NCBI GenBank assembly: GCA_024654265.1 | Contig: JANLIO010000005.1 | Location: 1 to 33,120, forward strand | From: a bacterium | GTDB taxonomy: Bacteria; Patescibacteriota; Patescibacteriia; 2-12-FULL-60-25 | Direction: 5' to 3' | DNA: 33,120 nt | Part shown: positions 5,614-19,943 of the stretch, in pieces | How positions within the stretch are numbered: position 1 is the first letter of the stretch | How the letters are laid out: the number at the start of each line of letters is the position of its first letter | Notes under the pieces: model-generated | Databases searched by the model: none | What the model was told of the DNA's origin: nothing | The model's input: only the letters and a program-made list of their open reading frames with translations | Translations under genes and position numbers: made by a program

Positions 5614-5708
5614 TTATCTGATGGATTGACGCTATTCTCATTCCGTGATAGCGTTCTCGCACAATTTACTCATATCGGTCCGCTCTCTCACCGATCAACG
5701 CGGAGAGA

Positions 5709-5811
5709 CCCCCACACCTTTTTCGCACGGTTCGCAATAGAATCGACCACATGAAATGAGATTGGGTTCATCTTGCATGATCCCAAATCGTGGACAAAAA
5801 AGGTGTGGGGG
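5709..5811. repeat. 15-bp perfect inverted repeat in the rpsF leader, 73-bp spacer
   Basis: cccccacaccttttt (5709-5723) versus aaaaaggtgtggggg (5797-5811). Shares CCCCACACCTTT with the repeat in the 23S insertion. Confidence 0.85.
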
Positions 5812-5825
5812 CGAAATATGAACTT

Positions 5826-6380
5826 ATGAAATACGAACTTCTTTATATTATTCCTGCAACCATTGCAGATGACGAGCTCTCTTCAGTAGAAGGGAGTGTG
5901 AGTGCACTTCTTGAAAAGCATGGTGCACAAACGATTGAAAGTACTCGGCTTGGAAAGTTGCGTTTTGCGTATCCGATCAATAAAACGCGATATGGTCATT
6001 ACACGTTAGTTCATTTTGACGCGGAAGGTGAGTCCATGGCGAAAATTGACATGGAACTTCGCATCTTGAACACAGTTCTTCGATATATTGTTTTGAAGCA
6101 GGAAGATACATCGAAAAAACCATTTACGCTCGTACAATTTACAGAGGTGAATGTTGATTCAAAGGAAGTTGGACGACGACGAAAGAAATCATCAGATGAT
6201 GAAACAGAAAAACCAGCACGAGAGGAGATTTCATCCGGTGTAAAAGCAATTGAAGGAGATGAAACGGCTGTAAAGGAAGATGTTGTTGAGGAAAAGAAAG
6301 AAGATGCTCCAGCCTTGACGGATCAAGAGCTTGAAAAGAAATTAGACGATGTTCTTACAAAAGATGAGAAAGAAGCGTAA
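5826..6380 (+). CDS. rpsF: 30S ribosomal protein S6 with an acidic C-terminal extension
   Basis: MKYELLYIIPATIADDEL...RLGKLRFAYPINKTRYGHYTLVHF; in rpsF-ssb-rpsR order. Confidence 0.93.
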   Translation: MKYELLYIIPATIADDELSSVEGSVSALLEKHGAQTIESTRLGKLRFAYPINKTRYGHYTLVHFDAEGESMAKIDMELRILNTVLRYIVLKQEDTSKKPFTLVQFTEVNVDSKEVGRRRKKSSDDETEKPAREEISSGVKAIEGDETAVKEDVVEEKKEDAPALTDQELEKKLDDVLTKDEKEA

Positions 6381-6392
6381 TCTATAGATCAT

Positions 6393-6860
6393 ATGAACTT
6401 GAATCGAGCCATGATTATCGGGAACCTTACACGGGATCCCGAGCTCCGCACAACAACGACGGGGCAGAACGTGTGTAATTTCAGTATTGCGACCTCCTCG
6501 CAGTGGAATGACGCACAGGGTCAGAAGCAGGAACGCGTTGAATATCACAACATTGTTGCATGGGGACGTCTCGCGGAAATTTGCGGACAATATCTTGCAA
6601 AAGGACGGAAGGTTTACCTTGAAGGTCGTTTGCAGACACGCGAATGGGAAGCACAGGACGGAAGCAAAAAAAGCCGAACAGAAATTGTTGCTGAAAATAT
6701 GATCATGTTGAGTTCTCCACCGGCGGGTGGTGCGGGTGCAACGAATGAGAGTGCGCCAGCGGTTAAGCAGACCGCAAATCCGGTCGTTGCTTCAAGTGAG
6801 CCGGTCATTGATCAGGGGACAGGAGAAGAAGAAATTCGAATTGAAGATATTCCATTTTAA
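6393..6860 (+). CDS. ssb: Single-stranded DNA-binding protein
   Basis: MNLNRAMIIGNLTRDPELRTTTTGQNVCNFSIATS...; acidic C-terminus EEEIRIEDIPF. Confidence 0.96.
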   Translation: MNLNRAMIIGNLTRDPELRTTTTGQNVCNFSIATSSQWNDAQGQKQERVEYHNIVAWGRLAEICGQYLAKGRKVYLEGRLQTREWEAQDGSKKSRTEIVAENMIMLSSPPAGGAGATNESAPAVKQTANPVVASSEPVIDQGTGEEEIRIEDIPF

Positions 6861-6863
6861 GTT

Positions 6864-7082
6864 ATGACACCAATCAAAAAACAGTCACGTCATTGTCACT
6901 TCTGCCGAGTGAGCTCGGAAGCAGTCGACTTTAAAGATACAGATACATTGCATCGCTATCTTTCTTCGTTTGGAAAGATCGTTTCGCGAAAGCGTTCGGG
7001 TGTGTGTCCATGGCATCAGCGAAAGTTGGCGGTTGCGGTGAAGCGCGCGCGCTTCATGGGACTTCTCCCATACGCCGTTTAA
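6864..7082 (+). CDS. rpsR: 30S ribosomal protein S18
   Basis: CHFCR...VDFKDTDTLHRYLSSFGKIVSRKRSGVCPWHQRKLAVAVKRARFMGLLPY. Confidence 0.96.
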   Translation: MTPIKKQSRHCHFCRVSSEAVDFKDTDTLHRYLSSFGKIVSRKRSGVCPWHQRKLAVAVKRARFMGLLPYAV

Positions 7083-15892: not shown

Positions 15893-16572
15893 TGTAAAAA
15901 GTACCTTGTGTATGTGTCCTTCGGGATGCATGCACAAAATTGAAATAACACGTAAGGGCGTACGGTGAATGGCTAGGTATTGAGAAGCTGATGAAGGACG
16001 TCGCAGCCTGCGATAAGCCTCGGTGAGGTGGCAAGCAACCTATGATCCGGGGATTTCCGAATGGGGAAACCCATCCTAATGAAGTTGGGATACCTACAGC
16101 TGAATATATAGGCTGTATGGGAGGCACCCGGGGAAGTGAAACATCTCAGTACCCGGAGGAAAAGAAACAAACAAATGCGGACCTCTCATCTCTCGCGGAC
16201 TCTTCGGAGATCGCGTTGAGATGAGCTGTCCGTATGCATTCCGTTAGTAGCGGCGAGCGAACACGGAGGAGCCCAAACCATCATCTGTGAACGCGTGAAC
16301 CGAATTGAGCACTTGTGTTTGATGAGGCCGCGCGTGACGAGCTTAGGCTGTCGCAGAAGATGGTGTTGCGGACAACACAATTCCGTAATCCTAAGATTTG
16401 GAGACAATTATTTTCTCTATAGTCGAGTTTCCTGGAAAGGAAAACCAAAGAGGGTGATAGTCCCGTAGATGAAATAGATGTAAAAATTGTAGTGTTGATC
16501 CAGAGTACGACGGAACTCGAGAAATTCCGTCGGAAGCAGCCACGACGATGTGGCAAGGCTAAATACTTCTCA

Positions 16573-16605
<33 letters not shown>

Positions 16606-16670
16606 CTGAAAAGAAGCCCGGGAGGGCGATGAAATAGTATCTGAAACCGTATGCCTACAAAGAGTCAGAG

Positions 16671-16997
16671 TCCCCACACCTTTCAGATTTTGTGATATCA
16701 GAGAAATCTGGTAGCTGTAGATGTATGCATTACTTCTACATTCTCAAAAGTGAAAAAGATGGAAAATTATACAAAGGATTTACGAATGATCTTCGTAAAC
16801 GATTTCAATCTCATCAAACAGGACAAAATGTTTCCACGAGATTGAGAAGGCCGTTTCGGCTTGTATATTATGAAGCGTATTCTTCAAGAGCAGATGCCTT
16901 TAAACGAGAGCAACAGATGAAAAAAACGGCAAAGGCATGGGCGCAGTTGAAAAGAAGAATAGAAAAGAGCATTCAGGAAATCTGAAAGGTGTGGGGA
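16671..16997 (+). mobile_element. Helix-25 insertion (IVS-like) with 20-bp perfect inverted repeat enclosing a GIY-YIG ORF
   Basis: tccccacacctttcagattt (16671-16690) versus aaatctgaaaggtgtgggga (16978-16997). Flanking 23S gtcagag...tgatggcgttcc matches the helix 25 region. Confidence 0.88.
16725..16985 (+). CDS. GIY-YIG nuclease superfamily protein encoded inside 23S rRNA
   Basis: MHYFYILKSEKDGKLYKGFTNDLRKRFQSHQTGQNVSTRLRRPFRLVYYEAYSSRADAFKREQQMKK; alternative GTG start at 16692. Confidence 0.88.
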   Translation: MHYFYILKSEKDGKLYKGFTNDLRKRFQSHQTGQNVSTRLRRPFRLVYYEAYSSRADAFKREQQMKKTAKAWAQLKRRIEKSIQEI

Positions 16998-17496
16998 TGA
17001 TGGCGTTCCTATTGAAGAATGAGCCGACGAGTGATCTCGGTGTTGCAGGTTAAGTTCCTGCGGGAATGAAGCCACAGTGAAAGCGAGCCTGAATAGGGCG
17101 CAAGTAGCACCGAATCGACCCGAAACCCGGCGATCTAACCATGACCAGGGTGAAGTCCGCCGAAAGGCGGATGGAGGCCCGAACCCACGCGCCGTGCAAC
17201 ACGCGGGGATGAGTTGTGGTTAGCGGAGAAATTCCAATCGAGCCGGGTAATAGCTGGTTCTCCCTGAAATATATTTTGGTATAGCGCTGATTAATAGCAT
17301 AACGGGGGTAGAGCACTGAATGGGGTAGGGGGCTTCGGCCTACCTCCTCCAACCAAACTCCGAATACCGTTATGTGTTCCCAGCAGTCAGTCCGTGGGGG
17401 CTAAGCTCCATGTGACAAAAGGGAAACAGCCCAGATCGCAGACTAAGGTCCCTAACTGTATGCTAAGTGTGAAAGGCAGTGGGGCGGCTTAAACAA

Positions 17497-17558
<62 letters not shown>

Positions 17559-18360
17559 TGCCCTGCGCCGAAAACTTACCGGGGCTCAAGCATACGACCG
17601 AAGTCGCGGGCTTCGACATTTATGTCGGAGCGGTAAGGGAGCATTCGCATCGGCGCTGAAGCTATATCGCGAGGTATGGTGGAGCGGTGCGAAGAGAGAA
17701 TGTCGGCATTAGTAACAACAAGACAGGTGAGAATCCTGTCCCCCGTAAGCCCAAGGTTTCCAGGGCAACGAGAATCGCCCCTGGGTTAGTCGGTCCTAAG
17801 GCGAGGCCGAAAGGCGTAGTCGATGGACAGCAGGTTAATATTCCTGCACTACCTTGGTGTTTCGATGGAGAGACGCATTCTTGCATTTTCCGAGAATCTC
17901 GGAATGATTCTTCGGGCGCGAAGGGGTGTGATGTAGGCAAATCCGCATCACGTAAGCCTCGTTGTGAGCGCGAGCCGGCCGTAAGGCTGGCAAGGGAAGA
18001 GAATGGGGTGCCTAGAAAATCTTCTAGAGCTAACACCAAGGTAACCGTACCGGAAACCGACACAGGTGGGCGGGCATAAGTGTGCCAAGGGGTACGAGAG
18101 AAGCATCGTTAAGGAACTCGGCAAAACAGCGACCGTAACTTCGGGATAAGGTCTGGCTGCCGCAAGGTAGCCCGCAGCTAAAGACGCCAACCGACTGTTT
18201 ACCAAAAACACAGCTCCCTGCTAAACCGCAAGGTGATGTATAGGGGGTGATGCCTGGCCAGTGTCAGAACGTTAAGCGGAGAGGTTAGACGACTTCGGTC
18301 GTCAAAGCTTTGAAGTCAAGCGCTGATGAACGCCGGCGATAACTATAATCGTCCTAAGGT

Positions 18361-18706
18361 GAATATCCACGTTGCCTTAGTGAGGTGAGAGCCCTCCTTT
18401 GAACTTCATTTTTGCCAATGAAGAGGTAGAAGAAAATTTGGCTATATGCTGGAATCCCTGAGTATCTTAAGCGACTCGGATAATCATTTTGATTATCCAG
18501 TAATACGGCTTTAAGTGCAGGCAATCAGCAGGAAAGACTGAAATGAATCACCGGATCAATTGGATCCATGTTTATTTCAGAATCCTCAGAGACTACACGC
18601 CAAACTCCAAGACAACTTGGATGAAGATATAGTCCGAACTGCATGGCGACATGCAGAGTCTGATTTGGAACATCAGACCGATTCAAGCAGATCGTAACAA
18701 TATTCG
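18361..18706 (+). mobile_element. Group I intron in 23S after E. coli-equivalent U1931, no ORF
   Basis: 5' exon CTAAGGT pairs with IGS GCCTTAG (18374-18380), ending in U.G; P7 GACTA (gagactacacg) with TAGTC (aagatatagtccg); intron ends in G; exons rejoin as cctaaggt|agcgaaattcc. Confidence 0.93.
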
Positions 18707-19254
18707 AGCGAAATTCCTTGTCGGGTGAGTTCCGACCCGCACGAATGGCATAACGAGTTGGCGACTGTCTTGACGATGCACTCGGTGAAATTGCAATTGA
18801 GGTGAAGATGCCTTGTACGCGCAGTGGGACGAAAAGACCCCGTGAAGCTTTACTATAGCTTGATATTGAGTTGTGGCTTAGCATGTTCAGCATAGGTGGG
18901 AGCCTTCGGGCAACAGTGAGATACCACCCTTGCCCTGTTACAACCCTTATCCCTACCCGTGAAACCGGGGAGGGAGACAGTATCTGGTGGGTAGTTTAAC
19001 TGGGGCGGTTGCCTCCTAAAGAGTAACGGAGGCGTTCACAAAGGTCAGCTAGGTGCGGATGGAAATCGCATCGATACCGCAATGGGAAAAGCTGGCTTAA
19101 CTGCAAGACCTACAAGTCGAGCAGATGGGAAACCAGGACATAGTGATCCGACCGTACGATATCGGACGGCGGAAGCTCAACGGATAAAAGCTACTCCGGG
19201 GATAACAGGCTGATCTCCCCCAAGAGTCCACATCGACGGGGAGGTTTGGCACCT

Positions 19255-19549
19255 TAATATCGGGGTGCTACAGGAGTGATCCTGTACCAAAAATTCGGCT
19301 TATAACGGTGAAACCGTAAGTGATTATGTGGTTCTAAAATCACACGGCAATACCGTGGGAAGTCCTCCGACAACAGTTGGAGTGACCCCGTAACGACTGA
19401 TCCGAAAGGAAAGAGTTCTGATGAAAAATCAGGGCTAACACGCCGACTCTTATCAACAAAATCGAGACTATGCCGAACAGGGCTACGGTCCGAGATAAGA
19501 AGAAGATATAGTCTGATCCTGTGAGAAATTACAGAAAAATAACCGACAG
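19255..19549 (+). mobile_element. Group I intron in 23S after E. coli-equivalent U2500, no ORF
   Basis: 5' exon GGCACCT pairs with IGS GGGTGCT (19263-19269), ending in U.G; P7 GACTA with TAGTC in aagatatagtctg; ends in G; exons rejoin as ggcacct|cgatgtcggctc. Confidence 0.93.
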
Positions 19550-19595
<46 letters not shown>

Positions 19596-19609
19596 TTGGC
19601 TGTTCGCCA

Positions 19610-19661
<52 letters not shown>

Positions 19662-19943
19662 CTGTCTACTGCGCGCGTGGAATTTTGAGGAGACGGATCT
19701 CTAGTACGAGAGGACCGAGATTCACGAACCTCTGGTGTACCGGCTGTTCCACCAGGAGCATCGCCGGGTAGCTAGGTTCGGTACGGATAAACGCTGAAAG
19801 CATATAAGCGTGAAGCCGTCTCCAAGATGAGAATTCATTTGAGGGCCCTTCGAGACGAGGAGGTCGATAGGCCGTACGTGTAAGGCGCGTGAGCGCTTAA
19901 GCGGAGCGGTACTAATAGCCCAATGTTATTTCTTCACAATTTA

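Follow-up and report, generated by a model that had tools for sequence, protein, structure and literature searches.

The perfect 15-bp inverted repeat upstream of rpsF in the genome under study (G000; other G and L numbers denote genomes and loci of relatives) likely belongs, as an ORF-less, MITE-like copy lodged in hairpin P3 of the rpsF mRNA leader, to a family of small mobile elements with a GIY-YIG nuclease as the putative mover. The family, found in this Patescibacteria-type bacterial class, has CCCCACACCWWW inverted repeats as its ends, and its gene-carrying members encode only a GIY-YIG nuclease of ~85 aa. We are confident that the rpsF repeat belongs to this family, and the repeat itself is real and not a product of chance. 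A MITE-like relative of the GIY-YIG element and a regulatory stem had been put forward as competing hypotheses in the preliminary description of this DNA; here they are not alternatives, since the repeat appears to be a mobile element inside a regulatory RNA. Coordinates (Table 1) refer to the window, that is, the whole stretch of 33,120 nucleotides that was analysed.

Table 1. Features of the rpsF leader and operon and of the 23S element, in window coordinates.
Feature	Position	Strand	Basis or remark
P1 5′ strand UCAUAUCG	5670..5677	+	Fold, leader model; pairs with 5812-5821
Conserved G(G/U)CC stretch, here GGUCC	5677-5681	+	Follows P1 5′ strand
P2 hairpin, UCUCUC 5684-5689 / GAGAGA 5703-5708	5684..5708	+	Fold, leader-model alignment
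Left arm CCCCCACACCTTTTT	5709..5723	+	Sequence, fold, leader-model alignment; forms the 5′ side of leader helix P3
ORF-less type-A element, 101 bp, CCCC to GGGG	5710..5810	none	Size class of 56 relatives
Element interior, 73 nt	5724..5796	none	Two small hairpins predicted: CGGUUC-GCAAUA-GAAUCG and one around UUGGGUUCAUCUUGCAUGAUCCCAA
Right arm AAAAAGGTGTGGGGG	5797..5811	+	Sequence, fold, leader-model alignment; 3′ strand of P3
P1 3′ strand CGAAAUAUGA	5812..5821	+	Fold, leader model; shortly upstream of rpsF start codon
rpsF (ribosomal protein S6), first of rpsF-ssb-rpsR	5826..6380	+	Pfam Ribosomal_S6, E 3e-20; TIGR00166
ssb	6393..6860	+	Pfam SSB, E 3e-39
rpsR (ribosomal protein S18)	6864..7082	+	Pfam Ribosomal_S18, E 3e-20
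Gene-carrying type-A element, 325 bp	16672..16996	+	Helix 25 of 23S, in its distal hairpin
Perfect 20-bp terminal repeat TCCCCACACCTTTCAGATTT	16671-16690/16978-16997	inverted pair	Sequence
GIY-YIG nuclease gene, 86 aa	16725..16985	+	Pfam PF01541, 58.6 bits vs cut-off 22.6

The rpsF repeat and its partner in the 23S rRNA gene

The two arms of the rpsF repeat are exact reverse complements with 73 nt between them, as first described. Left-arm positions 5710-5721 are a 12-mer, CCCCACACCTTT, common to the rpsF repeat and the 23S element, which has four sites in the window: 5710 (+), 5799 (-), 16672 (+) and 16985 (-). These four occurrences are also the total for the whole genome (872,652 bases, 94 contigs), where they make up two inverted pairs, one in the rpsF leader and the other, which holds the GIY-YIG gene, at the ends of the insert in 23S; these are the two pairs already noticed within the window. 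Past CCCC the rpsF repeat runs on as ACACCTTTT, which is the terminal sequence of the element family, and its 13-mer CCCCACACCTTTT is also present in 23S and 16S elements of other genera. The distance from CCCCACAC to GTGTGGGG at rpsF is 85 nt, within the 70-100 spacing class described below and with the ends in inverted order, and no ORF of at least 60 aa was found inside the 101-bp element. The terminal repeats excepted, the rpsF copy resembled neither the 23S element nor other copies in its interior. It counts against the explanation favoured here that G000 has only two type-A copies, a single one of them ORF-less, and that their interiors have nothing in common; in single relatives the ORF-less copies number as many as 13 for type A and 36 for type B.

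The partner repeat in 23S is present as noted earlier but is longer than had been seen, being perfect over 20 bp. At the corresponding helix 25 site, G007 and G008 have an ordinary short hairpin. The GIY-YIG insert does not lie in a group I or group II intron, Rfam placing group I introns only elsewhere in 23S; the 23S gene (15942-19934) also contains two of these, at 18401-18656 and 19244-19535. Near helix 45 of 23S, two relatives (L016 in G008, L020 in G007) have a hairpin, CCCCACACCTTT-ctaacc-AAAGGTGTG, that resembles a compact family copy. Another GIY-YIG gene of G000 lies among repeated TGTCATCCCCG..CGGGGATCCAGGA palindromes of a REP-like family (L008, G000:C54:3348-6569).

Related elements in other genomes

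The distribution of the family was observed directly in three spacing searches with CCCCACAC and GTGTGGGG across 381 genomes of the class, using the reversed pattern as a control. At a spacing of 281-311 there were nine copies (control 0), eight of which enclose a GIY-YIG ORF; at 70-100, the ORF-less class, 56 copies in 24 genomes (control 1), with up to 13 per genome; and at 4-34, a compact form, 81 copies spread over 42 genomes (control 3). Because the middle search returned 56 copies against one, about 2% of CCCCACAC-N70..100-GTGTGGGG pairs are expected by chance, which bears out the initial impression that the shared motif was unlikely to be accidental. Gene-carrying type-A elements measure about 280-325 bp and ORF-less ones about 90-115 bp (88-113 in the 46 inspected), and both occur in many genera. 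The proposal of a MITE-like, ORF-less relative is supported by the fact that GIY-YIG and ORF-less elements have the same ends and that copies in relatives carry 6-bp target duplications.

Several further observations concern where the ends occur. Among CCCCACAC sites within 3 kb of each other on the complete set of G121 contigs, 18 pairs are convergent against 2 divergent and 6 tandem. In palindrome-rich genomes (G122, G227, G153, G135, G258, G121) the closest GIY-YIG genes have the same ends. Flanking repeats were absent for most family members when the surroundings of all GIY-YIG genes were searched, so the repeats belong only to some nuclease lineages. Rfam returned no family for the elements themselves. 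Viral contigs were considered as carriers of the elements and rejected, as the 10 pattern matches in them include none with GIY-YIG and serve instead as a negative control. One interior motif (GGCGAAGCCGCCTTACGGCTT-like) is common to ORF-less elements of both repeat types in several families (L137, L138, L131, L132, L124, L331, L332), and this similarity of sequence suggests that interiors may have been exchanged between the types. At L236 (G093:C75 around 62100), a GIY-YIG element whose ends are CCTCTCAACTTTTTGAGAA apparently lies in a protein gene, the 5′ coding part of which is repeated after the insert.

Target duplications and nuclease lineages

Direct hexamers stand flush with CCCC...GGGG in the type-A ORF-less copies of relatives, with 5 or 6 of 6 positions matching in 17 of the 46 inspected and 0-2 in every shifted register; re-pairing within flank classes gave p < 1/5000. 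The duplicated hexamers, such as ATAAAT, GTCAAC, GCGTGC and GTAAAC, follow RYNNRY, so that the repeat often extends one or two pairs into the duplication; the shuffle behind the p value respects this. No such duplication flanks the rpsF copy, which tells against the explanation favoured here. Type-A copies in RNA genes, RNase P RNA and rRNA among them, mostly lack one too, GIY-bearing ones included, and over the type-A GIY copies the mean is 2.1 of 6 hexamer matches, which is at chance.

A second family, type B, was reached through an inverted-repeat census of G121 and the ends of two GIY genes, which together gave CCCGTTAGA...TCTAACGGG. As an independent replication, this pattern has 158 ORF-less copies spread over 31 genomes (control 0), with duplications of 5-6/6 in 22 of 44 and 0-1 in other registers. 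At a spacing of 245-275 it occurs 13 times, in 11 of 323 genomes (control 0), and 10 of the 13 copies encode GIY-YIG; these GIY copies have duplications too (mean 4.1/6, re-pairing p = 5e-5). On a tree of 85 GIY-YIG proteins the two repeat types are separated by one change, compared with 8.3 for shuffled labels, and the separation of type-A from type-B nucleases recurs in 100% of 200 bootstrap trees. Since the types separate this cleanly despite coexisting in single genomes (G007, G093, G121, G227, G263), the ends travel with the nuclease lineage. A single clade of type-A nucleases bearing terminal inverted repeats within all GIY-YIG proteins was also considered: they are clustered (0/500 shuffles), but monophyly was unsupported (AU test p = 0.39) and was not retained.

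On these grounds we judge it somewhat probable that the GIY-YIG protein is the transposition enzyme. It is possible, though unlikely, that the elements are mobile but are moved by an unrelated transposase, the GIY-YIG protein being a passenger or an accessory nuclease of homing type. GIY-YIG enzymes are not known for 6-bp target duplications, and the general lack of duplications at type-A GIY copies would fit such an arrangement, as would G093, a genome with 13 ORF-less type-A copies in which the best GIY-YIG gene abuts one copy, no GIY-YIG gene has a matching repeat on both sides and no larger element with the same ends was found. Against it, no other gene was found within the repeats; the nuclease lineage co-segregates with the repeat type in both families; type-B GIY copies have duplications; and, over the G121 genome as a whole, genes of 270-300 bp with repeats on both sides are GIY-YIG genes. 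The sole larger structure in G121 is a 520-aa serine recombinase gene between unrelated 137-bp inverted repeats (G121:C15:61366-63240), possibly an invertible segment or an effect of assembly. This recombinase was rejected as the mover, its CCCCACACC lying ~100 bp inside the 137-bp arms. Serine recombinases would not produce 6-bp duplications.

Copies in structured RNAs and the rpsF leader

Type-A elements with a GIY gene and type-A elements without an ORF share sites in structural RNAs. Helix 25 of 23S hosts the former in G000 and the latter in G095, and the 3′ hairpin of RNase P RNA carries GIY in G007 and is ORF-less in G072 and G227. At a 5′ site in RNase P RNA, GIY copies are found in L088 (Falkowbacteria) and G121 and an ORF-less copy in G138. 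Other GIY copies are in 16S (G218, G315), beside tmRNA (L089) and at tRNA genes (G121). The rpsF copy conforms to this pattern, as it too is in a hairpin of a structured RNA.

Transfer RNA genes are involved in two further ways. Elements of ~98-117 bp, of both types, contain whole tRNA genes, for Ala (L151 in G258), Val (L154 in G138) and Leu (L170 in G121), and additional enclosed genes are those for Val at L316 (G170) and Ala at L317 (G149); these are apparently mobile or element-bounded tRNA genes. Other small GIY-YIG genes have an intact tRNA gene on one side and, on the other, a partial duplicate of that tRNA, usually its 5′ half, which is broken up by short palindromes; this arrangement was seen in Patescibacteria and in Flavobacteriaceae (L097, L099, L101, L105, L106, L107, L110). 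The tRNA-flanked genes suggest a second, tRNA-targeting mode of GIY-YIG insertion.

The rpsF leader was characterized from the pattern in 30 relatives of the family, 13 of which were aligned for covariation. Their common order is P1, G(G/U)CC, the hairpins P2 and P3, then the other strand of P1 and the start codon. Covariation over the 13 relatives is 0.529, compared with 0.211 when shuffled and at most 0.147 when slid (16 pairs, 85% paired), and 13 of the 16 pairs have both-sided changes. The resulting covariance model recovers most other leaders of the family. It aligns G000 at 5667-5828 with P1, GGUCC and P2 present, 92 nt inserted in P3 and its end on the rpsF ATG, at a score of only 2 bits (E = 2), kept low by the penalty on the 92-nt insertion. 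The basis of the assignment in G000 is position and architecture, and on this model the repeat very probably occupies P3. The G000 leader also folds better than its shuffles (z = -4.3; 0/200 as good).

The earlier suggestion of a regulatory stem, to be checked by the conservation of that stem in relatives, held in one respect: the leader covaries in relatives and the repeat occupies its conserved, covarying stem position P3. The spelling of the 15-bp repeat is not kept, and the repeat sequence itself is not the conserved feature. P3 of relatives is short and spelled differently from CCCCACACC, which is therefore not what regulation conserves. The accompanying idea that the stem sequesters a G-rich sequence was not borne out, as no good Shine-Dalgarno sequence is masked and 14 nt separate the G-run from the ATG; relatives likewise have no obvious Shine-Dalgarno sequence at rpsF. 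Rfam searches at relaxed thresholds with the G000 leader and six relatives' leaders gave chance-level matches only and no curated rpsF_leader family. By analogy, the ligand of the G000-type leader is probably S6:S18, and with P1, CC and P2 kept, autoregulation may well still operate with P3 enlarged.

It is improbable that the rpsF repeat is merely P3 elongated by ordinary drift, with convergence as the source of the 12-mer that it shares with the 23S element. Such an origin would be helped by the CCCC...GGGG at the base of P3 in several relatives and is in keeping with a P3 conserved by covariation, with the enlarged P2 or P3 of other relatives (G036, G004, G002) and with the lack of a target duplication at the rpsF copy (AGAGAC / GCGAAA, 1/6). 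Drift would not account for the continuation past CCCC into the family's terminal sequence, the 101-bp span within the family size class, pairs that are ~56 times commoner than in the control, a 12-mer found elsewhere in the genome only where the 23S element begins and ends, or a 13-mer that recurs in elements of other genera. A third reading, in which the hairpins are not mobile DNA but recurrent terminators or RNase III-type processing stems with a class-wide preferred sequence, is very improbable: compact copies are terminator-like, all copies have strong stems and some enclose whole tRNA genes or flank 16S rRNA, but at rpsF the stem stops 14 nt short of the start codon and lacks a U-tract, the 100-bp copies show 6-bp direct repeats in a single register, several of them stand just after separate terminators, gene-carrying copies have the same ends, and interiors and sites differ between copies, as they do for insertions.

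Proposed mechanism and significance

Returning to a mobile element within the rpsF leader, the GIY-YIG nuclease would recognise the terminal repeats, excise or copy the element from its CCCC end and open RYNNRY targets with a 6-nt stagger, which would yield the 6-bp target duplications. ORF-less copies would be mobilised in trans. The arms could fold into a peripheral helix in transcribed RNA genes, where insertions at hairpin tips may be tolerated because the arms form such a stem. We lean slightly towards regarding the elements as a transposon class with an 85-aa GIY-YIG protein as its only enzyme, marked by C-rich ends, 6-bp RYNNRY duplications, mobilisation in trans, tRNA-bearing hairpins included, and survival in hairpins of essential RNAs, here the rpsF leader.

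To our knowledge, GIY-YIG is absent from the accepted recombinase types by which prokaryotic transposons are classified. A target-duplicating, terminal-repeat element with GIY-YIG as its only gene would, if confirmed, add a transposon type. It would also offer a reason for the abundance of small GIY-YIG genes in Patescibacteria genomes and for the intron-less GIY-YIG inserts in Patescibacteria rRNA genes, and would account for dispersed hairpins that could otherwise be read as terminators or riboregulators. The rpsF case illustrates how a mobile hairpin can become part of an mRNA control element, and the GIY-YIG enzyme is small enough for direct in-vitro work. In the open-access papers to which the search was confined, there was no description of a bacterial GIY-YIG terminal-repeat element and no paper joining GIY-YIG with repetitive extragenic palindromic elements. 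Mobile DNA of this kind appears to be previously undescribed, though priority is not certain.

Comparison with known systems

The elements resemble the MITEs of bacterial insertion sequences in being short and ORF-less with terminal inverted repeats, in the duplications seen in relatives and in having gene-carrying partners with the same ends. They differ in that the partner encodes a GIY-YIG nuclease and not a DDE-type transposase, that insertions favour hairpins of structural RNAs and that the rpsF copy has no duplication. REP palindromes and their RAYT (TnpA-REP) genes are also comparable, as gene-less dispersed palindromes with a single-gene relative that has the same palindromic ends. RAYTs belong to the HUH/Y1 enzymes, and 6-bp target duplications are absent from REPs. 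In the present elements, unlike REP/RAYT, the gene is GIY-YIG (PF01541) and is flanked by terminal repeats as an inverted pair; no Y1/HUH transposase was found with the elements, nor any other gene inside the repeats.

Fungal mitochondrial GC clusters and double-hairpin elements insert into rRNA genes and intergenic DNA, and we know of no protein encoded by them. They too are mobile hairpins (compare PMC4478555), but in a different genome and with different ends. The known rpsF_leader is an mRNA structure that binds S6:S18 (PMC4647458). The leader described here agrees with it in lying upstream of rpsF in rpsF-ssb-rpsR, in a conserved cytosine pair between helices and in a helix adjoining the start codon, and it differs in being a three-helix junction (P1-P2-P3) with no Rfam match, in which P3 is replaced by a mobile element in G000.

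A further precedent is a survey of rRNA insertions in CPR bacteria (J Bacteriol 2024; PMC11270868), which, in the part available to us, describes GIY-YIG inserts that are not group I/II introns as sparse, poorly conserved in site and non-homing. That part of the survey reports no terminal repeats, duplications or ORF-less relatives. It has in common with our findings the same 23S site, a stem-forming insertion and GIY-YIG inserts outside introns. What sets the present elements apart from that account, as far as it is available to us, are the family-wide ends, the target duplications, the ORF-less relatives and the sites outside rRNA, which include an mRNA leader.
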